Of a stretch of DNA of 64,000 bases, positions 25,885 to 48,101 are shown piece after piece; position 1 is the first letter of the stretch; each line of letters starts with the position of its first letter. The notes below the pieces were generated by a model. The model searched no databases, was not told where the DNA came from, and saw only the letters and a list, made by a program, of their open reading frames with translations. A program made the position numbers and the translations under genes. Origin of the DNA: a bacterium (GTDB lineage: Bacteria > Hydrothermota > Tepidihabitantia > Tepidihabitantales > Tepidihabitantaceae); the NCBI GenBank assembly GCA_035505375.1, contig DATJQV010000066.1, positions 1 to 64,000 of the forward strand, written 5' to 3'.

Positions 25885-26232
25885 CCGGTCTTCAAACCAC
25901 TCAGCAAACCACTCGGTAATTCACTCGGCGAGTCACTCGGCGTGTCACTTGGCAAGTAACTTACCGTCTCACTCGGCAAGTCACTTACCGACTCACTAGA
26001 CGAGTCACTGGGTAAGTCACTCGGCAACTCACTGGGCAAGTAACTGGGCATGTCACTTACCATGTCAGTCGGTAAGTAACCAGGCGAGTCACTCACCGAG
26101 TCACTCGGTGACTCACCAGGCAAGTGACTCGGTAAGTCACTCGGTAAGTGACTGGGGGAGTCACTGGGGGAGTGACTGGGGGAATCACTGGGGGAGTGAC
26201 TTACCGAGTGCTGGCGCAGGTCACGCTGCATG
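25885..26232. repeat. 12-base-period degenerate array 1, about 29 units
   Basis: From about 25897 to 26208 the sequence falls into 26 consecutive 12-base units without a single indel, consensus TCACTCGGYAAG (= AAGTCACTCGGY rotated). Weaker units extend to 25885 and 26232. Ten-base direct repeats CACGCTGCAT flank it (25874-25883 and 26222-26231), 348 bases (29 units) apart and in phase. The minus strand is open throughout and would encode a tetrapeptide repeat (SPSD/SPSH/LPSD). A TATAAT lies 4 bases before a minus-strand ATG at 26231. The units diverge a lot but keep their phase. A second array with a related consensus is at 46921-47268. Confidence 0.85.
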
Positions 26233-34434: not shown

Positions 34435-35181
34435 ATGGCCGACCACTCCTCCATCGAATGGACTGAGGCGACGTGGAACCCGGTAACGGGGTGCTCGCAC
34501 ATCAGCGCGGGGTGCGCGCACTGCTATGCGGAACGGTTCGCCCTGCGGCTGCAGGCCGCGGGCATGCCGAAGTACAAGAACGGGTTCAAGGTGACGACCC
34601 ACGAGAGCGAGTTGCTCACTCCGCAGTCTTGGCGCAAGCCGCACGATGTATTCCTCTGTTCCATGGGTGACCTTTTCCATGAGAAGGTGCCATCGGGATT
34701 CATCCAGCGCGTGTTCGACGTGATGAAGTCGTGCCGACAGCACCGATTCCAGGTTCTCACCAAGCGCAGTCAACGGCTCAGGCAGTTGGCTCCGACGCTA
34801 CCTTGGCCTGAGAACATCTGGATGGGAGTGACGGTCGAGGACTCTCGGAACGTGAAGCGCATCGCCGATCTCGTCGCGACGCCTGCCAGGGTTAAGTTCC
34901 TTTCAGTGGAGCCGCTACTGGGCGAAATTCCGGACCTCCCTCTTGGTGACATCGACTGGGTAATTGTCGGCGGCGAGTCCGGACCGGGAGCGCGACCAAT
35001 CAGGAAGGAATGGGTCATTTCCATCCGGAATCAGTGCAAGAAGGCCGGGGTTGCCTTCTACTTCAAGCAGTGGGGCGGGACGAGGAAGCACGCGAACGGC
35101 CGCACACTCGACGGCAGGATATACGACGCGATGCCACGGCAGGCAGTAGACGGTAGACAGCAGACAGTAGACAGCATGTAG
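34435..35181 (+). CDS. Gp37/Gp68-type (DUF5131) three-cysteine protein
   Basis: A 248-aa protein of the phage Gp37/Gp68 (DUF5131) family. The N-terminal motif IEWTEATWNPVTGCSHISAG, then CAHCYAERF, gives Cys20-x6-Cys27-x2-Cys30, a likely iron-sulfur site related to radical-SAM proteins. Further marks are MGDLFHE, FQVLTKRSQRL, WMGVTVEDSRN, FLSVEPLLG and VGGESGPGARP. The usual partner TcmP is absent here; instead DUF488 and two hypotheticals precede it. The last 14 residues (AVDGRQQTVDSM) are encoded by a heptamer repeat that forms the left arm of the S23 cassette. Confidence 0.85.
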   Translation: MADHSSIEWTEATWNPVTGCSHISAGCAHCYAERFALRLQAAGMPKYKNGFKVTTHESELLTPQSWRKPHDVFLCSMGDLFHEKVPSGFIQRVFDVMKSCRQHRFQVLTKRSQRLRQLAPTLPWPENIWMGVTVEDSRNVKRIADLVATPARVKFLSVEPLLGEIPDLPLGDIDWVIVGGESGPGARPIRKEWVISIRNQCKKAGVAFYFKQWGGTRKHANGRTLDGRIYDAMPRQAVDGRQQTVDSM

Positions 35182-35190
35182 CAGACAGCG
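35145..35190. repeat. Left heptamer arm of S23 cassette 1
   Basis: Six unbroken units (AGTAGAC, GGTAGAC, AGCAGAC, AGTAGAC, AGCATGT, AGCAGAC). The right arm (35625-35652) carries the inverse units GTCTACT. The arm supplies the C-terminal codons and stop of the Gp37/Gp68 gene. Confidence 0.9.
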
Positions 35191-35207
35191 AACTCCAGCG
35201 GGCTACG

Positions 35208-35612
35208 TCACGCGCGACCGACGATTGAGACAATCAGACCATGCAGCATTCGACCAACCACGTCCAAAGAGGCCGTGACGGGTTCGACGTTAGTCACGTA
35301 ACCGAGGTCACGACTAAGGAGCAGGTAGTAGCGTAATTCTTCCAGCGAGCCCTGGGAGATGTTGTAGAACCTCACCTTGTCCGGACTGCTCCGCTTCTTG
35401 AAGCCTTCGGCGATGTTCGCGGGCACCGATACGGCCGCCCGCCGCATCTGTGACACGAGTCCGAACTGCTCCTCGCGAGGGAAGCGCGCGGTCATGCGAT
35501 ACACCACGAGCGTGAGTTCGTGAGCCCTCTGCCAGACCGAGAGATCCTCAAACCTCTCCAGCTTCCGTACGCCAGGCTTCTCTGCCCCCTGGCCCCCTTC
35601 ACACTCCTTCAT
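35208..35612 (-). CDS. S23-type four-helix-bundle protein, cassette 1
   Basis: A 134-aa protein of the 23S rRNA intervening-sequence (IVP/S23) four-helix-bundle family: FEDLSVWQRAHELTLVVYRM, FPREEQFGLVSQMRRAAVSV, PANIAEG, FYNISQGSLEELRYYL. Relatives are coded within IVSs of 23S rRNA and also occur free in genomes; the fold is shared with the Avd protein of diversity-generating retroelements. Here the gene lies alone between inverted heptamer arms (35145-35190 and 35625-35652). The first 16 residues are repeat-like and may be an extension. A second copy is at 38973-39338. Confidence 0.9.
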   Translation of the reverse strand: MKECEGGQGAEKPGVRKLERFEDLSVWQRAHELTLVVYRMTARFPREEQFGLVSQMRRAAVSVPANIAEGFKKRSSPDKVRFYNISQGSLEELRYYLLLSRDLGYVTNVEPVTASLDVVGRMLHGLIVSIVGRA

Positions 35613-35624
35613 GTGCCCTTCCCT

Positions 35625-35652
35625 GTCTACTGTCTACTGCCTACAGTCTACT
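35625..35652. repeat. Right heptamer arm of S23 cassette 1
   Basis: Units GTCTACT, GTCTACT, GCCTACA, GTCTACT, inverse to the left arm. It contains the stop codon of the phosphoesterase gene that follows. Confidence 0.9.
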
Positions 35653-37366
35653 TCATGAGCATCAGCCCCAAGCCGTGCGGGTCGTAGGTGATGGGCTGCC
35701 AGTCGGCATTCGCCTTGCGGCCTGGTTGCTTGCGCCGGAAGTTGAGGCCCCAGACACTGCCCGGCTTCGCAGTGACTCCGAATTGGGCCAGCGGCAGCTT
35801 GGCTTCCACCGACCAGTAGTTCTTGCCTTTCGTCGTCTTAACGTCCACGTCAGCGTTCCAGGACATGTCCACATCCATCTTGCCCGCCGGGCTGGCCGTT
35901 ATCTTCTGGTCCAGCACGACCGCGTTCGGGTTGAAGTATATCTGGTAGATGACGCCTCGTGATGTATCAGGCGCAAGGAACCAGCCGACGCAGTCGTCAA
36001 GGTGCACTCCCTTGTCGCGCTCGGTGGCATTGGCCCTGAGACTCTCCGGATGCGGGTCGAAGCAGACAGCGGCGAGGTAGAGATCCGTTGAGTCGGCCGC
36101 GAAGTAGAACCGGACCGAGTCGGTCTTCATCGATTCGCTGTCGTTGGTGAAAAGGTCCATAACCGGCTTCTGCCAGAGTTTCTCGATGACCTTGCCGTCA
36201 ATCACCGGCGGCTTCCTGACGAAGCCGCACCGGGCGGTGCGGGCCACGTCGAGCGAGGCGGTAATCGGACTCGACTTGCCTTTGGCGTACGGGAACCGGA
36301 GCGTCAGCTTGGGCGCCGGGAACGGCCGGCCCGCGCCGGCCACGGCAAATCGGTACTCGGCTTCGGCTCCGGGAGCGACGCTGACTGCCGCCGCCTTGGG
36401 TGAGACATTCCAGGTGGCAGGTACGTCCCAGCGGAGCGTGTCCTGAAGCGGAGTCTCAAGCGGCCGGTTCCTGATGATGAGCGTCACGGTATCAGAAGCC
36501 ATGAGATTGTCGCCGACGAGCACCGGCCGGCTGAACCTGAGCCCGGTCAGCTCGTTCCGGTCCACGGACTGGATGTCTTCCCAGGTCACGTCGTTCCACG
36601 CCCGCTTCTCTCCGCCGAGCAGAATCGGCTCGATGGTGATGCCCTTCTCGTCGTCCACGGTCACCATCGCCCAGTGATAGAGAATGCCGGTCGGGCCCGT
36701 CTCGGTTTCACCGCCGGAGCTGCCGATCGCCGTGTACTTGATGCCGTCATAGGTCGCGCTGAAATACTCGTGGATGTGGCCGTTGAACACCGCGTTCACG
36801 CCGTACTTCTTGAACAGGCTGTGCAGGGTATCCGGCTTACCCTCAGCAAGAGAGGCGGTCCAAAAAGGCTTGTGGTAGAAGACGAGCTTGAACTTTGCCT
36901 TGCGCGCAGCGGCCAGGTCGGAAGCCAGCCAGTTGAGCTGCTCTGCCGGCAGCGATTCGCTCGCTTCCCAGCGGCTGGCGTCGAGCACGGTGATGTGCAG
37001 GCCCTTGTAGTCGAACGAGTAGTAGGGTTTGCCTGCGTTTCGTTCATACGGACCTAGTGCGTTGTCGAAGGTGATGTCGTGGTTGCCCGGCGTGTAGTAG
37101 AATGGCATCTTCAGCGGGGCAATAATGGCCTTGTATTCCTTCCACTCCTGGTCGAGCTTCAGCGTGTCGGTCCGCTCGTAGCCTTCAATGTGGTCGCCGA
37201 CGGTGATGACGAAATCGGGGTTGGCCTTCGCGACCTCGGCCACGATCTTCTCGTGGACGCTGTCCTGGTGGTCGCCGGTCCGGTCGCCGAGTATCGCGAA
37301 CCTGACCGGCGCCGCGACCGCCACCACCGCCAGCAGGAACACAGTTGTCATAATCACTCTCTTCAT
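35648..37366 (-). CDS. Secreted calcineurin-like phosphoesterase with C-terminal CBM9/DOMON-like domain
   Basis: A 572-aa protein with signal peptide MKRVIMTTVFLLAVVAVAA and AGGAGA 5 bases before the ATG. Residues 25-270 form a metallophosphoesterase: ILGDRTGDH, TVGDHIEG, YTPGNHDITF and VFNGHIHEYF provide the two-metal site. A linker beta domain follows, then a C-terminal beta sandwich (PPVIDGKVIEKLWQKP ... SVEAKLPLAQFG ... GLNFRRKQPG), as in CBM9/DOMON-like domains of secreted hydrolases. It ends LGLMLMK without a sorting domain. It probably acts on extracellular phosphoesters or nucleotides. Its stop codon lies within a heptamer repeat. Confidence 0.85.
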   Translation of the reverse strand: MKRVIMTTVFLLAVVAVAAPVRFAILGDRTGDHQDSVHEKIVAEVAKANPDFVITVGDHIEGYERTDTLKLDQEWKEYKAIIAPLKMPFYYTPGNHDITFDNALGPYERNAGKPYYSFDYKGLHITVLDASRWEASESLPAEQLNWLASDLAAARKAKFKLVFYHKPFWTASLAEGKPDTLHSLFKKYGVNAVFNGHIHEYFSATYDGIKYTAIGSSGGETETGPTGILYHWAMVTVDDEKGITIEPILLGGEKRAWNDVTWEDIQSVDRNELTGLRFSRPVLVGDNLMASDTVTLIIRNRPLETPLQDTLRWDVPATWNVSPKAAAVSVAPGAEAEYRFAVAGAGRPFPAPKLTLRFPYAKGKSSPITASLDVARTARCGFVRKPPVIDGKVIEKLWQKPVMDLFTNDSESMKTDSVRFYFAADSTDLYLAAVCFDPHPESLRANATERDKGVHLDDCVGWFLAPDTSRGVIYQIYFNPNAVVLDQKITASPAGKMDVDMSWNADVDVKTTKGKNYWSVEAKLPLAQFGVTAKPGSVWGLNFRRKQPGRKANADWQPITYDPHGLGLMLMK

Positions 37367-38110: not shown

Positions 38111-38980
38111 CTATTGGAACCGGTTCCAGCCCGGGTGTTTGGCATCGGCCTGCCCGCCGAGCTCGATGAAGGCGGTTTCGATGTTCAGACGGTGCGCTTC
38201 CTTGTTCTGGTCGCGGTCAGCGTATGTCATGCCGGCGCAGTCTCTGAGAGCATCGGAGATGCGTCGCCCTGCTGCCACTGCTGCTTCCACTCTGCGCTGC
38301 AGTTCAGCAAGGTAGGCGCGGTCCGTGTCGAACCTCGCCCTGACTTCCGACCGGCCGCTGGCCGGCGTGCCGTGGCCCGGCACGAGCGTGGTCACATCAA
38401 GTTGCGCAAGTCGGTCGAGAGTCTGGCGATACGCCTCCAGGCTGTGCATCACAAATGGAATCTCGATGTCACTCAGCATGTCCGCGGCCCAGAGGGTGGT
38501 CTCGCTTTGGTCATAGACGACCAGTTGTTCGGGCGCGTGGCCCGGCGCGTGTAGCAGTTCGATCGTCCTGTCCCCGAGCCTGAGCTCGAGTTGGTCGGCG
38601 AAAGTCTGGTCCGGCTCGCGCAGCAGGAAGGGCATGTCACGTTGCACTCCCGACTGCCGTTCCCACTCGGTAACCTGGCGCTCGATTCGTGCACCTGACT
38701 CGGCCAGCACCGCCTGGCTCTCCTGCAGCTGGACGACCGGCACTCCCGGAAAGTACTCGGGACCGAGAACGTGGTCCCAGTGGTTGTGGGTCACGACCAG
38801 GTACGTCGGGCTTGCGCCGTGCGCGTAGATGTGGGACCGCAGCCGGTCAATCTCGTCAGGGAAAAGGCCAGGGTCGATGAGCAGAGCGTCCCTGCCGTAA
38901 ACGAGAACGCCGGCGTTGTAGGACATGGAACGGCTTGGAAAGAGAGTAAGGGAGGAGAGAGGAGGGAGGAGTTCAGTCAT
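38111..38980 (-). CDS. Metallo-beta-lactamase-fold hydrolase
   Basis: A 289-aa protein with the zinc motif VVTHNHWDHVLG (HxHxDH) near 85, LLHAPGHAPEQLVVYD near 170, and VPGHGTPASG near 225. The substrate is not evident; glyoxalase II- or quinolone-signal-type thioester hydrolysis is a possibility. The start is the ATG at 38980 that overlaps the TGA of the S23 gene (ATGACTGA). Codons 5-11 (LLPPLSS) come from the heptamer arm of S23 cassette 2, so the cassette has probably replaced the native start; an internal ATG (MSYNAG) is an alternative. Confidence 0.8.
   Translation of the reverse strand: MTELLPPLSSLTLFPSRSMSYNAGVLVYGRDALLIDPGLFPDEIDRLRSHIYAHGASPTYLVVTHNHWDHVLGPEYFPGVPVVQLQESQAVLAESGARIERQVTEWERQSGVQRDMPFLLREPDQTFADQLELRLGDRTIELLHAPGHAPEQLVVYDQSETTLWAADMLSDIEIPFVMHSLEAYRQTLDRLAQLDVTTLVPGHGTPASGRSEVRARFDTDRAYLAELQRRVEAAVAAGRRISDALRDCAGMTYADRDQNKEAHRLNIETAFIELGGQADAKHPGWNRFQ
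38945..38972. repeat. Left heptamer arm of S23 cassette 2
   Basis: Units AGTAAGG, GAGGAGA, GAGGAGG, GAGGAGT ending at the stop codon of the S23 gene. Inverse to the arm at 39345-39381. Confidence 0.85.
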
Positions 38981-39338
38981 CGCGCGATAATGCTCCAATG
39001 AGACCATTCAACATTCGACTCAACTCATCCAGCTTGCTCTGAAGCTCGCCGGCCGTCTTCGGTGAAATGTACCGCAGTCGGGCCGCGACTTCGACCTGCG
39101 TATCGAGCTCGCTGAGCGAGCCGCGTGACGTGTACAGGAAGCGGACGTATTCCTTGCGCCCTTTTCTGGCCGATCCCTCCGCTATGTTGCTGGGAATAGA
39201 CAGGGCAGCCCTCCGCATCTGTGACACCATCCCGAATTTCTCGGCGGCCGGGAATCGCGCAGTGACCTCGTGCACCTGAATGACGAAATCCATTGCCTTC
39301 ATCCATACCGTGAGTCGGCGGTGCGGCTTCTCATCCAT
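38973..39338 (-). CDS. S23-type four-helix-bundle protein, cassette 2
   Basis: A 121-aa IVP/S23 family member: LTVWMKAMDFVIQVHEVTARFP, EKFGMVSQMRRAALSIP, SNIAEGSARKG, FLYTSRGSLSELDTQ. It is clearly related to the copy at 35208-35612 (QMRRAA, NIAEG, GSLxEL). The gene fills the space between two inverse heptamer arms with almost no spare sequence. Its TGA overlaps the ATG of the metallo-hydrolase. Function unknown; possible RNA-binding bundle. Confidence 0.9.
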   Translation of the reverse strand: MDEKPHRRLTVWMKAMDFVIQVHEVTARFPAAEKFGMVSQMRRAALSIPSNIAEGSARKGRKEYVRFLYTSRGSLSELDTQVEVAARLRYISPKTAGELQSKLDELSRMLNGLIGALSRDD

Positions 39339-39341
39339 TTC

Positions 39342-39962
39342 TCATCTCCTCCCTCCTCCCTCACTCCCTGCTCCCTGAACCTCTGAGTGCCGAAAGCAAC
39401 CGACGAGGTGATCGTTCACCATCCCTGCCGCCTGCATGAATGCGTAGCAGATGGTCGAACCGACGAAGCGGAACCCGCGCGCCTTCAAGTCCTTGCTCAT
39501 TGCATCGGACTCGCGGCTCCGGCAGGGAATCCGGCCGATGGCCCGCCATCGGTTCTTCTTGGTCTTGCTGCCGGTGAACTGCCAGATGTAGCGGTCGAAG
39601 CTGCCGTACTCCTGTCTTACCGCCAGGAAGGCACGCGCGTTGGCGATCGTGGCTTCTATCTTCATGCGGTTGCGGATGATGTCGCAGTCGGCGAGCAGTT
39701 GTTGTACCTTGCGGCTGTCGAACCTCGCCACCTTGCGCGGGTCGAAGTTCGCAAATGCCCTTCGGAATCCCTCGCGTTTCTTCAGGACGATTGCCCAGCT
39801 CAGTCCGGCTTGAAAGGCATCGAGCACGAGGAACTCAAACAGCTTCCGGTCGTCGTGCAGCGGCACGCCCCATTCGCTGTCGTGGTAGCGAATCATCAGC
39901 TCGTTGTCCGCCGGCCACGGGCAGCGTCGTACGGGCTTTGCAGTTATGGTGTCAGCGGACAT
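39342..39962 (-). CDS. tag: Tag, DNA-3-methyladenine glycosylase I
   Basis: A 206-aa enzyme removing 3-methyladenine from DNA. Seen: RCPWPADNELMIRYHDSEWG (zinc ligands Cys14 and His27), FEFLVLDAFQAGLSWAIVLKKRE, SKDLKARGFRFVGSTICYAFMQA, and GMVNDHLVGCF with the C-terminal zinc ligands. The final ten residues are repeat-encoded by the neighbouring S23 cassette arm. Upstream on the minus strand, TTGACC-17-TAACGT ends 9 bases before the ATG, again suggesting a very short leader. Confidence 0.93.
   Translation of the reverse strand: MSADTITAKPVRRCPWPADNELMIRYHDSEWGVPLHDDRKLFEFLVLDAFQAGLSWAIVLKKREGFRRAFANFDPRKVARFDSRKVQQLLADCDIIRNRMKIEATIANARAFLAVRQEYGSFDRYIWQFTGSKTKKNRWRAIGRIPCRSRESDAMSKDLKARGFRFVGSTICYAFMQAAGMVNDHLVGCFRHSEVQGAGSEGGGRR
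39345..39381. repeat. Right heptamer arm of S23 cassette 2
   Basis: Units TCTCCTC, CCTCCTC, CCTCACT, CCCTGCT, CCCTGAA, inverse to the arm at 38945-38972. It forms the last codons of the tag gene (encoding GAGSEGGGRR). Confidence 0.85.
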
Positions 39963-42070: not shown

Positions 42071-43051
42071 GTGAAACCGGACAACAGTTGCAGCCATTCC
42101 ATCTCGGTCGAGGACATCGACCCCCTCGCCCTGCTCGGCCCGGCCGACGTCAATCTGACTACCCTCGGCAAGCACTACAAGACAGCGATTGTCGTGCGCG
42201 ACGGCCGGATCATGCTGCACGGCCCCAAGACCGAAGAAACCGAGCTGATGAGGCTGCTCGACCGGCTGCTCGCGCGCGTCCGGCAGGGCGAACCCCTGAG
42301 CCCGGAGCTCATCAACGCTGAGGTGGACCGGATCCGCCGCTGCCGCGAACCCGGCGCGGGCGATTCCGAGCCGGAAGTGCTCGCGATCAAGACTCCCCGG
42401 AAGGCGATATTCGCGAAGACGCGCAACCAGCGGAGCTACCTGCAGGCGATGCAGCGCCATGACATCATCCTCGCGGTCGGGCCGGCCGGAACGGGCAAGA
42501 CCTATCTCGCGGTCGCCGCGGCGCTTGAATCCCTCGTTTCGGGCCACTCGAGTCGCATTGTCCTCACCCGGCCCGCGGTGGAGGCCGGAGAGTCGCTCGG
42601 CTACCTGCCCGGCACTTTCAAGGAGAAAGTAGACCCCTACCTGCGTCCGCTCTACGATGCCCTGTTCGACATGATGCCGATGGAGCGGGTCCAGCGCCTG
42701 ATTGAGCAGGAAGTTATCGAGGTCGCACCGCTCGCGTTCATGCGGGGCCGGACTCTATCCGACGCCTACATTATTCTCGACGAGGCGCAGAACACCACCT
42801 CGACTCAGATGCGCATGTTCCTGACCCGGCTCGGCTGGAACTCGAAGGCCATCGTCACCGGTGACATCACCCAGATCGACCTTGCCGCTGAGCACAGGTC
42901 CGGCCTGATTGAGGCGGTCGAGCGGCTCGAAGGCGTCACCGGCATCAGCATCGTCCACCTGACCGACGCCGACGTGGTCCGGCCGCCGCTGGTCTCGCGC
43001 ATCATCCGCGCGTACGAGAACCGGAAGGCTACCGGCGCTGATGCGTCCTGA
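42071..43051 (+). CDS. PhoH-like ATPase
   Basis: A 326-aa protein: an N-terminal KH-like region (1-100) and the PhoH P-loop domain with ILAVGPAGTGKTYLAV near 135 (Walker A), RPAVEAGESLGYLPG, and YIILDEAQNTTSTQMRMFLTRLG (Walker B). The start is GTG at 42071, downstream of the predicted transcription start. It precedes ybeY with an 11-base overlap, a widespread bacterial pairing linked to rRNA processing and RNA quality control. Confidence 0.92.
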   Translation: MKPDNSCSHSISVEDIDPLALLGPADVNLTTLGKHYKTAIVVRDGRIMLHGPKTEETELMRLLDRLLARVRQGEPLSPELINAEVDRIRRCREPGAGDSEPEVLAIKTPRKAIFAKTRNQRSYLQAMQRHDIILAVGPAGTGKTYLAVAAALESLVSGHSSRIVLTRPAVEAGESLGYLPGTFKEKVDPYLRPLYDALFDMMPMERVQRLIEQEVIEVAPLAFMRGRTLSDAYIILDEAQNTTSTQMRMFLTRLGWNSKAIVTGDITQIDLAAEHRSGLIEAVERLEGVTGISIVHLTDADVVRPPLVSRIIRAYENRKATGADAS

Positions 43052-43433
43052 AATCTACGGGACGCAGGACAGCCGCCTGCGTGCCGATATCCGGCGTCTC
43101 TGCCGCCGGATTGACCGTGACCTCAAGCCGGAGCCCTCGGTCGTGAACGTTGTCTTCGTGACCGATCCACAAATACACGCGCTTAATCGCCGGTTCCTGA
43201 GACGCGACCGGCCGACGAACGTCATCTCATTCAACTCGCCTGAGTCGCATTTGCCGGGCGAACCCAGGCTTCTCGGCGAGGTCTACGTCTCGCGCGACCG
43301 GGCGCGGGCCCAGGCGCGCGAATACGGTGTCACCTACGCGTCGGAACTCCGCCGACTCGTGCTCCACGGGTTGCTGCATCTGCTCGGCCTGACCCACCGC
43401 GAGATGGAACCGTACTATAACAAATACCTTTGA
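43041..43433 (+). CDS. ybeY: YbeY, rRNA-maturation endoribonuclease
   Basis: A 130-aa metalloprotein with the zinc motif HGLLHLLGLTH and the upstream PTNVISFNSPE block. It matures 16S rRNA 3' ends and aids ribosome quality control. At 130 aa it is slightly short; the C-terminus stops soon after the motif. It overlaps phoH by 11 bases. Confidence 0.93.
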   Translation: MRPEIYGTQDSRLRADIRRLCRRIDRDLKPEPSVVNVVFVTDPQIHALNRRFLRRDRPTNVISFNSPESHLPGEPRLLGEVYVSRDRARAQAREYGVTYASELRRLVLHGLLHLLGLTHREMEPYYNKYL

Positions 43434-43443
43434 GGACAATGAC

Positions 43444-43513
43444 CAGTTTGCAGTTTGCAGGTCGCAGTGGGGTCAGGACATGACTGCCAACTGCCAACTG
43501 CAGACTGCAGACT
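43444..43513. repeat. Inverted heptamer element (empty form)
   Basis: Left arm CAGTTTG, CAGTTTG, CAGGTCG, CAGTGGG (43444-43471); right arm ACTGCCA, ACTGCCA, ACTGCAG, ACTGCAG (43483-43510). The arms are inverse to each other and can fold into a stem with a short loop. It lies between ybeY and the transporter gene. Confidence 0.8.
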
Positions 43514-43527
43514 CAATTGCCTAGTCC

Positions 43528-44763
43528 ATGCTCTGGCACCTGCTCGTCATTCTGGTCCTGCTCGTCCTGTCTGCCTTCTTCGCCGTCTCGGAGACCGCAC
43601 TCTTCTCCCTGACCCCGGGCAGGCGCGAGGAGCTGAGGAATAGCCGCCCCAAGGCGGCACGACGGATTGACGCGCTGCTATCCGACACGGGCCGCCTGCT
43701 TGGCACTCTGCTGCTTGGGAACCTCGTCGTCAACACCGCCGCCTCCAGCATCTTCACCCTGATGCTGCTGGGGCTGTCCCGCCGCCACGGCATGAATGAG
43801 GCGCTGCTGCTCGGCGTCGGCGGAATCGTCCTGACTTTGGTGCTGCTCATGTTCTGCGAAGTTACACCCAAGGTGGTGACCAGCAGAAGCCCGGAGCGGT
43901 TTGCGCCACTTGTCACCGGTCCGATCGAAGTAGCCAGATTGCTCTTGTGGCCCTTTACGGCGTTGTTGATGATGGTGAGCCGGCGACTGACTCCGCGTCG
44001 GCGCGAACCGGAGACGCTCACCGACGATGAACTCCATACGATGATCGACATCGGCAGGCAGCGCGGCGTCCTGCTCGGTTCCGAGGAGGACATCCTCGCC
44101 AACCTCGTCGGTCTCGAGAGGCGCACTGTCTCCGAAGTGATGACCCCGCGGATTGACATCGTCGCCATTCCCGAGGGTATGACCATCCGTGAGGCAATCG
44201 TCGTCTGCCGCAACGCAGGCTTCTCCCGGGTTCCGGTCTACAGCGACACCATCGACCACATCAGCGGCACGGCGTACGCCAAGGATCTGCTGAGCGCCGC
44301 CGACCCCGGCGCACCGGTCTGTTCCCGGTGCCGCCCGGCCTACTTTGTGCCTGAGGTCAAGCGGCTGCCCTCGCTGCTCGACGAACTGAGGCGCCGAGGT
44401 TCGCACATCGCGGTCGTGGTCGACGAGTTCGGCCAGACGTCGGGGCTGGTTACGCTCGAAGACCTGCTCGAAGCCGTTTTCGGAGAGATCGTCGACGAGC
44501 ACGACGTGGCCGAGGAGTTGCCTTACTCCAAGCTGGACGAGCACAGCTACCTGGTGGATGGTGAGATCGACCTTGCGACCCTCAACCGGCTCTTCCGACG
44601 TGCGTTCACCGGGCTCGGGCACGAGAGGTTGTCGGGTTTCATACAGGACAGGCTCGGCCGGCTCCCTCGCGAGGGCGACGTCATCGCCCATCGTTCCCTC
44701 GAGATAATCGTGAAGGAGACCGACGGCCCGAAGCTGGAGAAAGTTCTGATAAAGAGGAAATGA
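43528..44763 (+). CDS. DUF21/CBS/CorC_HlyC-domain membrane protein, first copy
   Basis: A 411-aa CNNM/HlyC-CorC-type protein. A DUF21 membrane domain of three to four helices (1-170; FFAVSETALFSL at 19-30) is followed by a CBS pair near 205-330 (VMTPRIDIVAI, VPVYSDTIDHISG, VVVDEFGQTSGLVTLEDLLEAVFGEIVDE). A CorC_HlyC domain near 345-411 closes it (YLVDGEIDLATLNRLF). Homologues take part in Mg2+ or cobalt efflux or homeostasis. The next gene is a second, shorter copy. Confidence 0.9.
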   Translation: MLWHLLVILVLLVLSAFFAVSETALFSLTPGRREELRNSRPKAARRIDALLSDTGRLLGTLLLGNLVVNTAASSIFTLMLLGLSRRHGMNEALLLGVGGIVLTLVLLMFCEVTPKVVTSRSPERFAPLVTGPIEVARLLLWPFTALLMMVSRRLTPRRREPETLTDDELHTMIDIGRQRGVLLGSEEDILANLVGLERRTVSEVMTPRIDIVAIPEGMTIREAIVVCRNAGFSRVPVYSDTIDHISGTAYAKDLLSAADPGAPVCSRCRPAYFVPEVKRLPSLLDELRRRGSHIAVVVDEFGQTSGLVTLEDLLEAVFGEIVDEHDVAEELPYSKLDEHSYLVDGEIDLATLNRLFRRAFTGLGHERLSGFIQDRLGRLPREGDVIAHRSLEIIVKETDGPKLEKVLIKRK

Positions 44764-44857
44764 CCAATCCCCAATTTCTAATGCCGGACGAATGTCCAAC
44801 TCAGGAGAATAGCTCTGCATTCGTTAGGAATTGGCAATTGGGAATTGGGAATTGCGC
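44764..44857. repeat. Inverted heptamer element, copy E2
   Basis: Left arm CCAATCC, CCAATTT, CTAATGC, CGGACGA; right arm TTAGGAA, TTGGCAA, TTGGGAA, TTGGGAA, inverse to it. The core (TCCAACTCAGGAGAATAGCT) is similar to that of the copy at 45823-45912. It starts right at the stop codon of the first transporter gene and ends just before the ATG at 44863. Confidence 0.85.
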
Positions 44858-44862
44858 CTGAC

Positions 44863-45804
44863 ATGGAACTTCTTTTCGGGTTCGTCCTGATTCTCGCCAC
44901 CGGCTTCTTCGCCGGGTCGGAAACTGCCGTCTACCGCGCCAACTGGATTCGGCTGACCAACTGGGCAAGCCACAACCTTCCGGGCGCGAAGTCCGCACTT
45001 CAGTTCCTGGACCGGCGCGAGTCGACCGTGGTCGTGACTTTGGTCGGCACCAGTTTCTGCGTCGTCTTCGCTACCGAGCTCTTCTCGCACTTCTTCGAGA
45101 GACAGTTCGGTCCGGCATCGGCCACCGCGGCTGTTGTCATTGTCGTCGTCCTCACCATCATCATCGGCGATTACGTACCCAAGGCAGTGGCCCAGGCGTT
45201 CCCCGACCGTTGGCTGCAGCGGGCCGTACTGCCTCTGTCGGTCAGCCGTCTGGTATTCGCGCCCGCCGTCCTGGTCCTCTCCGGGATCGCCCGCCTGCTC
45301 GCCGCACCCGTCGCCGGTACCGGCCAGCGATTTCCGCTCACGCGTCAGGACTTCCTGGCAGCCATGCAGAGGCGAGACACCGAGTCCGGTTCGCCCCGAA
45401 CGGTGACGAACATCGTGTCACGGCTCTTTCGGTTCTCGGCCATGAAGGTCGCCGAGGTCCGCATCCCGCTCGGGCAAGTGAAAGCCGTGCCCCACACCGC
45501 CGGTCTGAACGAGGTGCTGGCGGTCATCAGTCAGTTCGGCTACTCGCGCATCCCGGTCTACCAGGGCGACCTTGCCAACATCACCGGCGTCATCGTCGCC
45601 AAGGACCTGCTCTCGGCTCCGGCCTGGCGCGTCCGGAAGATACCGCGGGTCAACGAGACCGACCGCGCCATGGAGGTCCTGCGCATGATGCAGCGCCGCG
45701 GCGAGCACCTCGCGGCCGTCGAGAGCGTAGACCATCAGGTCACCGGCATCGTGTCGCTCGAGGACTTGATCGAAGAGCTCGTGGGCGAAATCCGCTCCGA
45801 ATGA
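44863..45804 (+). CDS. DUF21/CBS-domain membrane protein, second copy
   Basis: A 313-aa relative of the preceding gene: DUF21 domain (FAGSETAVYRANWIRL near 20, GDYVPKAVAQAFPD) and a CBS pair (IPVYQGDLANITGVIVAKDLL ... VTGIVSLEDLIEELVGEI). The CorC_HlyC domain is missing, so the protein stops right after the CBS pair. ATG at 44863 preferred; a TTG upstream lies in the repeat element. Confidence 0.88.
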   Translation: MELLFGFVLILATGFFAGSETAVYRANWIRLTNWASHNLPGAKSALQFLDRRESTVVVTLVGTSFCVVFATELFSHFFERQFGPASATAAVVIVVVLTIIIGDYVPKAVAQAFPDRWLQRAVLPLSVSRLVFAPAVLVLSGIARLLAAPVAGTGQRFPLTRQDFLAAMQRRDTESGSPRTVTNIVSRLFRFSAMKVAEVRIPLGQVKAVPHTAGLNEVLAVISQFGYSRIPVYQGDLANITGVIVAKDLLSAPAWRVRKIPRVNETDRAMEVLRMMQRRGEHLAAVESVDHQVTGIVSLEDLIEELVGEIRSE

Positions 45805-45822
45805 TGACGGCGGAGAGAATGA

Positions 45823-45912
45823 CCAATCCCCAGTTTCCAATGCCCAACGAGTTTTCAATTCACAAGAACAGCTCCGCCTTCGCTGGGAATTGGCAATTGG
45901 GACTTGGTAATT
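45823..45912. repeat. Inverted heptamer element, copy E3
   Basis: Left arm CCAATCC, CCAGTTT, CCAATGC, CCAACGA; right arm CTGGGAA, TTGGCAA, TTGGGAC, TTGGTAA. It shares arms, core and context with the element at 44764-44857: each lies directly after a transporter gene and before the next gene. Confidence 0.85.
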
Positions 45913-45927
45913 ACGATTCTGAGCGCC

Positions 45928-46860
45928 GTGCGTAGAATCGTCAGGTCCGAGGCCGTCTGTCTCAGCGTCAAGGACTACCACGAGTCGTCCAAGCTCTTGA
46001 TGTTCTTCACGCTTGAATACGGGAAGGTAAGCTGCCTGGCCAAAGGCGCGCGCCGGCTCAGGAGCAAGTTCGGCGCTGCGCTCGATCTCTTCGCTCAGTC
46101 CCGCATCATATACTACATGCGCGAGAACCGCACGCTCTTCACGCTCTCCGACGCCGAGCTTGTCCATTCCTTCAGCTGCTCTCAACTCCCCACTCCCGAC
46201 TCCCTGTCCCGCTTCCTCGCCGCCGAACAGATGACCGAATTCGTTCTCCGGGTCACGCAGCCCAACGACCCGAGCCCACATCTCTACCGGCTTCTTCTCA
46301 GCTACCTCTCAACCCTTGAGTCGCTCCCGCCGTATTCCTCAACTCCCGACTCTCGACTCTCGACTCCCTGTTCTGCTCTTGTCTGCTCCTTCCTGCTCAA
46401 GGCCGCGAGCTTTCTTGGGTTTCGGCCCGAACTCCGTCGCTGCCTCATCTGCCAGCGTCCCATCGAGAGCCAGCGCCCGGCCTACTTCGACCCCGGACGC
46501 GGCGGCATCGTCTGCCCGCGCTGCGCCGGTGAGAACCCGCGGGGGACAAGGCTCGATCCTGCCGGCCTCGACGCCATCGCCTTCCTGCTCTACACCCCTG
46601 CCGCCGAGATCGCGCACGTCTTCTCGTCTGGTCCGGAGCCGACAACCGGAGACAACCGCCAAGAACGCCAAGGCCGCCAGGATTCCGATCCGGAGAATCT
46701 CCAATCTCCGCCTCCCGTCTCCTCATCCGCTAATCCACAATCTACAATCTACAATCTGCAATCTCCTCTCGACCTCGTCCTCGGTTTCCTTGGCCACCAC
46801 TTCGACCCGCTCGTGCTCAACTCCTTCCGCTGGCACGCGGGCCTCGAGCGCAAAGTTTAG
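45928..46860 (+). CDS. recO: RecO, recombination mediator with repeat-encoded insertions
   Basis: A RecO protein of 310 aa if it starts at GTG 45928 (a TTG at 45904 lies in the repeat element). The N-terminal OB fold (EAVCLSVKDYHESSKLLMFFT, KGARRLRSKFG) and the C-terminal helical/zinc part (RRCLICQRPI, CPRCAG) are visible. RecO loads RecA by annealing to SSB-coated DNA. Three stretches are repeat-encoded insertions: SQLPTPDSLS (46184-46211), SSTPDSRLSTP (46340-46367) and a 40-residue stretch containing NPQSTIYNLQSP (46737-46764 and before). The last also holds a NAKAAR-type repeat in another frame. The insertions lie in loops and the frame is kept. Confidence 0.85.
   Translation: MRRIVRSEAVCLSVKDYHESSKLLMFFTLEYGKVSCLAKGARRLRSKFGAALDLFAQSRIIYYMRENRTLFTLSDAELVHSFSCSQLPTPDSLSRFLAAEQMTEFVLRVTQPNDPSPHLYRLLLSYLSTLESLPPYSSTPDSRLSTPCSALVCSFLLKAASFLGFRPELRRCLICQRPIESQRPAYFDPGRGGIVCPRCAGENPRGTRLDPAGLDAIAFLLYTPAAEIAHVFSSGPEPTTGDNRQERQGRQDSDPENLQSPPPVSSSANPQSTIYNLQSPLDLVLGFLGHHFDPLVLNSFRWHAGLERKV
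46184..46211. repeat. Heptanucleotide repeat in recO (a)
   Basis: Units AACTCCC, CACTCCC, GACTCCC, TGTCCCG in frame. Confidence 0.8.
46340..46367. repeat. Heptanucleotide repeat in recO (b)
   Basis: Units CAACTCC, CGACTCT, CGACTCT, CGACTCC in frame. Confidence 0.85.
46737..46764. repeat. Heptanucleotide repeat in recO (c)
   Basis: Units ACAATCT, ACAATCT, ACAATCT, GCAATCT in frame; a looser GAATCTCC/CAATCTCC run precedes it from 46695. Confidence 0.85.
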
Positions 46861-46920
46861 CCGGCCAGCAACCCGTTATCCGCTACGCAACCTGTCGATT
46901 TCTTGGTCCTTCTGTCCGGG

Positions 46921-47268
46921 CGCAACGTTCGGACTGACTCGGCGAGCAACTCGGGAAGCAATTCTCCGGGCAGTCCGGAGAACAACGGCCGGAGCTACCT
47001 CGGGACCAACCCGGACAGGAACCCGCGGAGTTAGTCGGGCCGCAACGCTCCGACCAACCCGGAGAGGAACGGGTGGAGCAACGGGTAGACTAACCGGGAA
47101 AGCTAACCGGAGAGCAACCGGTGCGGCAACCGGGCAAGTTGCGGAGGGAGTTCCTCGGGGAATTGCGTGGGATGCAACCCCCGGGACAAGGGAGAGGGCA
47201 ACGGATCGGACAACCTCGCAGATGACTCGGTAGGCAATCCCCCGGACGAGGGAGGGGACTTTCGGGAA
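46921..47268. repeat. 12-base-period degenerate array 2, about 29 units
   Basis: From 46921 to about 47268 the sequence is 28-29 successive 12-base units with no indel, consensus AGCAACCCGGGN (for example AGCAACTCGGGA, ACCAACCCGGAC, AGCAACCGGTGC, GGCAACCGGGCA). Rotated to GAGCAACCCGGG it matches the consensus of array 1 (AAGTCACTCGGY) at 7 positions and by transition at several others. It occupies most of the recO-transposase gap. No convincing gene overlaps it. Both arrays have the same apparent length of 348 bases. Confidence 0.85.
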
Positions 47269-47401
47269 GGCGGCCTAGCGCTCGATTATTCAAGTGGTTA
47301 GACTGGTTTCTGGTCCCGCGGGCATGTATCCAAAGACTAAACTCTCATCCCCCGCCCACATGCACTTTGGGGGATTTCGGGGACACAATACTTAATTACA
47401 C

Positions 47402-47435: not shown

Positions 47436-48101
47436 ATGGCGAGAATAGCGCGAGTGGTTGCGGCGCAGGTGCCGCATCATGTTGTCCAGCGTGGGAACCG
47501 GCGCCAGCCGGTCTTCTTCAGCACAGCCGACTACAAGGCGTATGTACGAATGATGGCCGCATGGTGCGGGCAGGAGAAAGTCGAGATCTGGGCGTACTGC
47601 CTGATGCCCAACCATGTGCACCTCGTAGCAGTACCCGATACCGAACAGGGTCTTGCCCGGGCGATCGGCGAGGCCCACCGTCGGTACACAGTCCGAGTAA
47701 ATCAGCGTGAGAACTGGCGCGGTTACCTCTGGCAGGGACGCTTCTCATCATACCCGCTCGATGAGCAGTACCTGCTGGCAGCGGTCCGCTACGTAGAACT
47801 GAATCCGGTGCGGGCCGGTCTGGTCGAGCGGCCATGGCAGTATCCCTGGTCCAGCGCGGCGGCTCATGCACGCGGTCGTGACGATACACTAGTGAAGGTG
47901 AAGCCGATGCTGAACCGGGTAGAGGACTGGCGCGAGTATCTCACGGGCGAGCAGGACAGCACCGACCTGGAACTCATTCGCCGTCACACGCGCAACGGTC
48001 GTCCCCTGGGGAACAGCGACTTCGTCGAATCGCTCGAAGCCAGGACTGGCCGAACGCTGGCTCCACTCAGGCGCGGACCCAAGCCGCGGCAACGGACTTG
48101 A
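47436..48101 (+). CDS. REP-associated tyrosine transposase (Y1/HUH)
   Basis: A 221-aa Y1 transposase. The HUH metal site is His60-x-His62 (LMPNHVHLVAVP), the catalytic tyrosine probably Tyr84 (AHRRYTVRVN), with the family WQGRFSSYPLDEQYLLAAVRYV block at 115-135 and the conserved ELNPVRAGLV. It nicks single-stranded DNA at hairpin ends and can mobilise REP-like sequences. The C-terminal tail is basic (RRGPKPRQRT). It is intact and lies between the 12-base array and a broken gene. Confidence 0.93.
   Translation: MARIARVVAAQVPHHVVQRGNRRQPVFFSTADYKAYVRMMAAWCGQEKVEIWAYCLMPNHVHLVAVPDTEQGLARAIGEAHRRYTVRVNQRENWRGYLWQGRFSSYPLDEQYLLAAVRYVELNPVRAGLVERPWQYPWSSAAAHARGRDDTLVKVKPMLNRVEDWREYLTGEQDSTDLELIRRHTRNGRPLGNSDFVESLEARTGRTLAPLRRGPKPRQRT

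Follow-up and report, generated by a model that had tools for sequence, protein, structure and literature searches.

What kind of DNA fills three gaps of a single operon, each time with a run of imperfect heptamers facing its own inverse, is the question raised by this locus. The window, that is, the whole 64,000-nucleotide stretch analysed, is part of contig C66 of genome G000, a 3.62-Mb draft for which the genome-wide figures rest on a 464-kb sample together with pattern and family searches. The operon has the order PhoH-YbeY-CNNM1-CNNM2-RecO, in which the host genes YbeY (43041-43433; PF02130), the two CNNM/CorC-type transporters CNNM1 (43528-44763; PF01595, PF00571 and PF03471) and CNNM2 (44863-45804; PF01595 and PF00571) and RecO (45928-46860, start taken at the GTG at 45928; PF11967 and PF02565) all lie on the plus strand. 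Three of its gaps are occupied by gene-less fold-backs to which no strand was assigned, namely E3 (43445-43513; arms 43445-43475 and 43481-43513) between YbeY and CNNM1, E1 (44759-44853; arms 44759-44794 and 44818-44853) between CNNM1 and CNNM2, and E2 (45818-45912; arms 45818-45850 and 45880-45912) between CNNM2 and RecO. The arm limits were set by alignment, and the stop codon of CNNM1 falls within the left arm of E1.

The arms are inverse runs of imperfect heptamers with one to two variable positions per unit, the unit being CAGTTTG facing CTGCCAA-CTGCAGA in E3 and CCAATNN facing NNATTGG in E1, to whose subfamily E2 also belongs. The preliminary description had proposed two homologous elements with inverse arms and a similar 25-base core, each between consecutive operon genes, and a third, different one at 43444-43513. 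Alignment upheld all of this: E1 and E2 share 82% identity over 94 columns, forming the closest pair in a family of 19 copies (median 60%), with 20 of 26 core positions identical, and E3 is built on another unit. RNA folding, which had been suggested as a check, gave z values of -5.9 for E3, -3.8 for E1 and -4.0 for E2, and none of 200 shuffles folded equally well; when folded as DNA, the three were equalled by one to two of 200 shuffles. Covariation in the E1/E2 family is modest, with a double change in five of 16 pairs and a covariation term of about zero. The motifs GAGGAAATGA and TCATTTCC were considered as a paired common inner core, and no such pairs were found on searching. Rfam searches of the window and of 40 S23 loci gave no match.

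Stable folds, an intergenic position within one operon and a strong co-direction with the upstream gene would all suit host regulatory hairpins, either terminators or RNA-processing sites, kept in operons by selection. However, sister species with intact operons have empty gaps, and in other species the same gap is filled by arms of unrelated sequence. The E1 gap, filled by E1 itself in G000, measures only 12-18 bp in G001-G003 and several outgroups, and in G004 and G005 it is occupied by a fold-back of 8-mers unrelated to E1. In the E2 gap, G000, G001 and G004 have the CCAATNN type and G002, G003 and G005 a AGTGGTCC type, and most of the family has no element there. Together with the link between run density and S23 number described below, this makes regulatory hairpins an unlikely explanation; the fold-backs are present or absent as units at orthologous gaps, as gene-less mobile copies would be. 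Genome G008 has seven S23 genes, yet no fold-back in the operon studied.

The same arm architecture surrounds the genes for S23, the 23S rRNA intervening sequence protein (PF05635), of which G000 has 25. Two of the cassettes lie in the window, both on the minus strand: S23a (35140-35657) has GTAGACA/CTGTCTA arms at 35140-35174 and 35623-35657 around a gene at 35208-35612 (PF05635, E=3e-36; TIGR02436), and S23b (38941-39376) has GAGGGAG/CTCCCTC arms at 38941-38976 and 39341-39376 around a gene at 38973-39338 (TIGR02436). Arms were scored by local alignment of the upstream flank against the reverse complement of the downstream flank, at a threshold passed by 2% of swapped pairs. Inverse 7- or 8-mer arms directly flank about 70-80% of S23/IVP genes in the genus and in a cross-phylum sample, as against 0-2% with shuffled partners. 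They were found at 60 of 77 copies within the genus (swapped-partner control 2%), nine of the 77 passing in direct orientation, and at 49 of 71 in a bacteria-wide scan of 80 loci (control 0.9%), in which the run period was 7 (95 runs) or 8 (23 runs) and scarcely ever 6 or 9. Eight further genomes, several of them of named cultured bacteria and including Prolixibacter denitrificans, Geotalea toluenoxydans, a Chryseobacterium and a Nostoc, contributed inverse arms at 19 of 27 copies (control 0%). No rRNA was detected in the window or in the 40 S23 loci, and the 23S rRNA of G000, a partial gene covering model positions 15-2044 in 2099 bases, leaves no room for S23.

The arm unit differs at almost every S23 locus of G000 (GAGGGAG, CAGCATA, GTAGACA, GAACGCC, ATTTTAG, AGAAATC, CCAATTC and others). 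The arm 5' of S23 is purine-rich, having more G than C at 107 of 122 loci, and arms have a median length of 29-32 nt, or about four units. Most insertions follow a gene and share its orientation, S23 being co-directional with its upstream gene in 37 of 43 cases (37 versus 6, by a rough open-frame criterion). This polarity and co-direction suggest a strand-specific step involving RNA or single-stranded DNA. One S23 clade (L039, L042, L263 and L283) has six-base arms (AAGGTA/TACCTT), so that the period itself seems to be inherited with the gene. Three divergent, longer PF05635-like proteins of 190-257 aa (L053, L054 and L055) are without heptamer arms.

That the operon elements are S23 cassettes lacking the gene, as had been proposed from the first reading, receives direct support from two observations. 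At the PhoH/YbeY junction, G003 and G004 contain an S23 cassette, about 600 bp long, whose arms are of the GTTAGGA/TCCTAAC type, and G001 contains a 109-bp fold-back of that arm type without the gene, so both forms occur at one orthologous site; the two genes overlap in G000, G002 and G005. Moreover, models built separately for the left and the right half of the E1/E2 family match both flanks of one S23 gene of G000 (L049, C33:44430) with E values of 1e-8 to 1e-9, and gave no comparable match among the other 103 S23 copies. E1 and E2 thus look like the L049 element minus its gene. The L049 element encodes S23 alone between its arms, and its arm is C-rich, opposite to the usual polarity. A full S23-bearing counterpart of E3 was not found.

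The arms are part of the unit that moves. Two S23 genes that are 92% identical (L032 and L275) lie at unrelated sites and share their arms, and among non-orthologous copies the share with similar arms was 0% below 60% S23 identity and rose through 21% and 30% to 57% above 80% identity (7 pairs), indicating that the arms travel with the gene but change more quickly than it does. At most gaps, arms may have been replaced either in place or through a new insertion. The S23b site is empty in G004, and in G003 it is occupied by S23 of another clade, whose arms differ as well; at the S23a site, the downstream gene is not conserved at the compared loci. Visual comparison of the orthologous gaps revealed no target-site duplication. 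Heptamer microsatellites, in which polymerase slippage makes the tandem units, chance or hairpin-mediated template switching sometimes inverts them and no mobile element is involved, would leave unexplained the enclosure of S23 genes by inverse arms that match across hundreds of bases, the arms common to unrelated sites and the all-or-nothing gaps, and were already disfavoured on these grounds. Such repeats are nevertheless over-represented in many bacteria, with a slippage origin proposed (PMC4692102), most strong runs in G000 are single and some lie inside recO; overall, we regard a purely microsatellite origin as quite unlikely.

Heptamer runs as a whole are a broader population than the fold-backs. 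Strong period-7 runs numbered 68 in 464 kb of G000, against about zero in shuffled sequence and mostly 0-5 for the other periods from 4 to 13 (10 for period 8 and 14 for period 12), and the E1/E2-type motif CCAATTNCCAATTNCC occurred 68 times with at most one mismatch, compared with once for the reversed control. The majority of 78 strong runs had no partner within 300 bp. The earlier expectation that neighbouring runs pair inversely more often than directly applied below 60 bp (13 inverse versus 9 direct) and failed at 60-1500 bp (24 inverse versus 49 direct), part of the direct pairs being interrupted arrays; similarity in both orientations far exceeds that of random pairs. Likewise, S23 cassettes bear out the idea of a fold-back family built on a 7-base period, given the inverse excess reported above, and heptamer runs in general do so only in part. 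With direct pairs commoner beyond 60 bp and most runs single, not all heptamer runs are halves of fold-backs, and heptamers also arise or survive outside them; single runs may be either element remains or a separate product of slippage. Within the recO frame, heptamer runs at 46181-46207, 46339-46371 and 46696-46764 are direct rather than inverse, and the spacer between recO and the following transposase gene (46890-47300) consists of irregular CCGG...AACC-rich quasi-repeats. Elsewhere in the window, positions 25898-26201 form an array of 12/24-base units, and period-12 runs, in contrast to those of periods 9-11 or 13, are frequent also in G000, G003 and G007.

Across 35 genomes, the density of 7/8-mer runs correlates with S23 gene number (rho 0.67, p 1e-5, with small samples for many genomes and uncorrected for phylogeny); genomes outside the genus show this less strongly (rho 0.41, p 0.027), and control periods gave a rho of -0.05. 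A comparable test bears on whether the elements are REP-like or MITE elements mobilised by the Y1 (IS200/REP-associated) transposases of G000. Y1 genes are present in most fold-back-bearing genomes, and their number correlates with run density (rho 0.48), but outside the genus this correlation is absent (p 0.26). In addition, Y1 genes are bounded by GGGGACAC-like ends of their own, with heptamer arms almost absent, and there is no sequence common to the heptamer arms, making mobilisation by Y1 as improbable as a microsatellite origin; Y1 was rejected as the moving enzyme. The window itself includes one such gene, of the IS200/REP-associated type (47436-48101), with its own inverted ends ATTTCGGGGACACAATACTTA and a near-identical copy on contig C6 of G000 (L295). 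A reverse transcriptase was likewise rejected for this role, as none was found in G001 and G005, both of which bear the elements, and viruses were dismissed as an S23 vehicle, the S23 pattern being present in just 17 of 2.9 million viral contigs. No cognate recombinase for the elements was found.

We consider E1, E2 and E3 to be non-autonomous copies, devoid of a gene, from a small mobile element family whose full form carries S23, and assign this reading a probability of about 0.78. The full form would be about 0.4-0.6 kb long, starting with around four units of 7 bases (in some cases 6 or 8), followed by one gene for an S23/IVP four-helix bundle and then by the inverse run. On the transcript, the arms could fold into a stem resembling that of the 23S rRNA IVS, and an S23 pentamer supplied by full copies might bind the arms as RNA or single-stranded DNA and help copies, gene-less ones included, to move in trans. 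The arm units would drift fast, while complementarity would be preserved either because the stem is under selection or because one arm serves as the template for the other. PDB entries 2gsc and 2rld contain five chains each, and in the Xanthomonas S23 protein, according to a secondary citation, four-helix bundles form a homopentamer ring (Lin et al. 2006, cited in PMC4990558); from the homopentamer one may guess that a single ring binds about as many units as an arm has.

A wider and more tentative proposal, which we think somewhat less probable than its negation, is that S23 elements occur throughout bacteria as a class of minimal mobile elements that encode no recombinase themselves. Their S23 pentamer would act on the 5' G-rich heptamer arm, as transcript or single-stranded DNA, and movement would rewrite or homogenise both arms, hence the lineage-specific units; the heptamer excess of bacteria would then largely be debris of the class, and the rRNA IVSs would be no more than the branch of it that is inserted in rRNA. 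More modestly, the inverse-heptamer S23 architecture may explain part of the heptamer excess in bacterial genomes. The IVS and the heptamer excess are joined in this way, with S23 outside rRNA as the cargo of mobile, heptamer-armed fold-backs that leave gene-less copies behind. Since several S23 copies in P. denitrificans, G. toluenoxydans and the Chryseobacterium bear such inverse heptamer arms, mobility, arm turnover and S23 function become testable in culturable hosts.

Among known systems, MITEs and REP/REPIN sequences resemble the elements described here in being short, gene-less, inverted, intergenic, dispersed and apparently moved in trans, but our elements have no class-wide terminal sequence, cognate transposase or visible target-site duplication; their terminal repeats are conserved within the CCAATNN subfamily and not across the whole class. 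Unlike the case of MITEs, the matching full copy L049 has no transposase between its arms, and unlike that of REP/RAYT, the element ends are not shared with the Y1 genes. S23 belongs to the same superfamily as Avd, the accessory protein of diversity-generating retroelements, and matches Avd models weakly, below the cut-off; the lack of a detectable reverse transcriptase in G001 and G005 sets the elements apart from these retroelements. Heptameric repeats have been reported from Xanthomonas (GGGAATC), from Nostoc and Calothrix (STRR) and from Beggiatoaceae (TAACTGA) (PMC4692102, PMC4679880). The Xanthomonas heptamers include 70-75 close pairs in inverse orientation whose position is conserved and whose sequence is variable, and heptameric repeats were reported as generally unassociated with mobile elements (PMC4692102). 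All these repeats share with our elements the period of 7, the intergenic location and the number of about four units; they are reported to have one dominant unit per genome, whereas the elements here have many units per genome and are tied to S23.

Since the 1990s the 23S rRNA IVS has been discussed as possibly mobile, and to our knowledge it has not been demonstrated how it would move. We found no paper linking S23 or the IVS with heptameric repeats in the open-access literature, and an earlier description elsewhere is possible. What we count as new is a variation on the IVS, namely S23 elements that lie outside rRNA and whose heptamer arms are specific to the locus; the rRNA IVSs and the bacterial heptameric repeats are known. 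The closest precedent is the 23S rRNA IVS, for instance that of Coxiella burnetii, in which tandem GACAGAT heptamers, variable in number, immediately precede the S23 ORF and the ends form a 28-bp stem; mobility of 23S rRNA IVSs was proposed and not shown (PMC4990558). Both kinds of element have terminal inverted repeats that form a stem, the same S23/IVP gene, forms with and without that gene and a sporadic distribution. The 23S rRNA IVS, which RNase III cuts out of the RNA, lies in an rRNA helix, whereas the S23 elements described here lie between protein genes, and given this difference in location we do not call them IVSs. They further differ from the 23S rRNA IVS in their many copies per genome, in the arm unit specific to each locus and in the comparative evidence of movement between sites.
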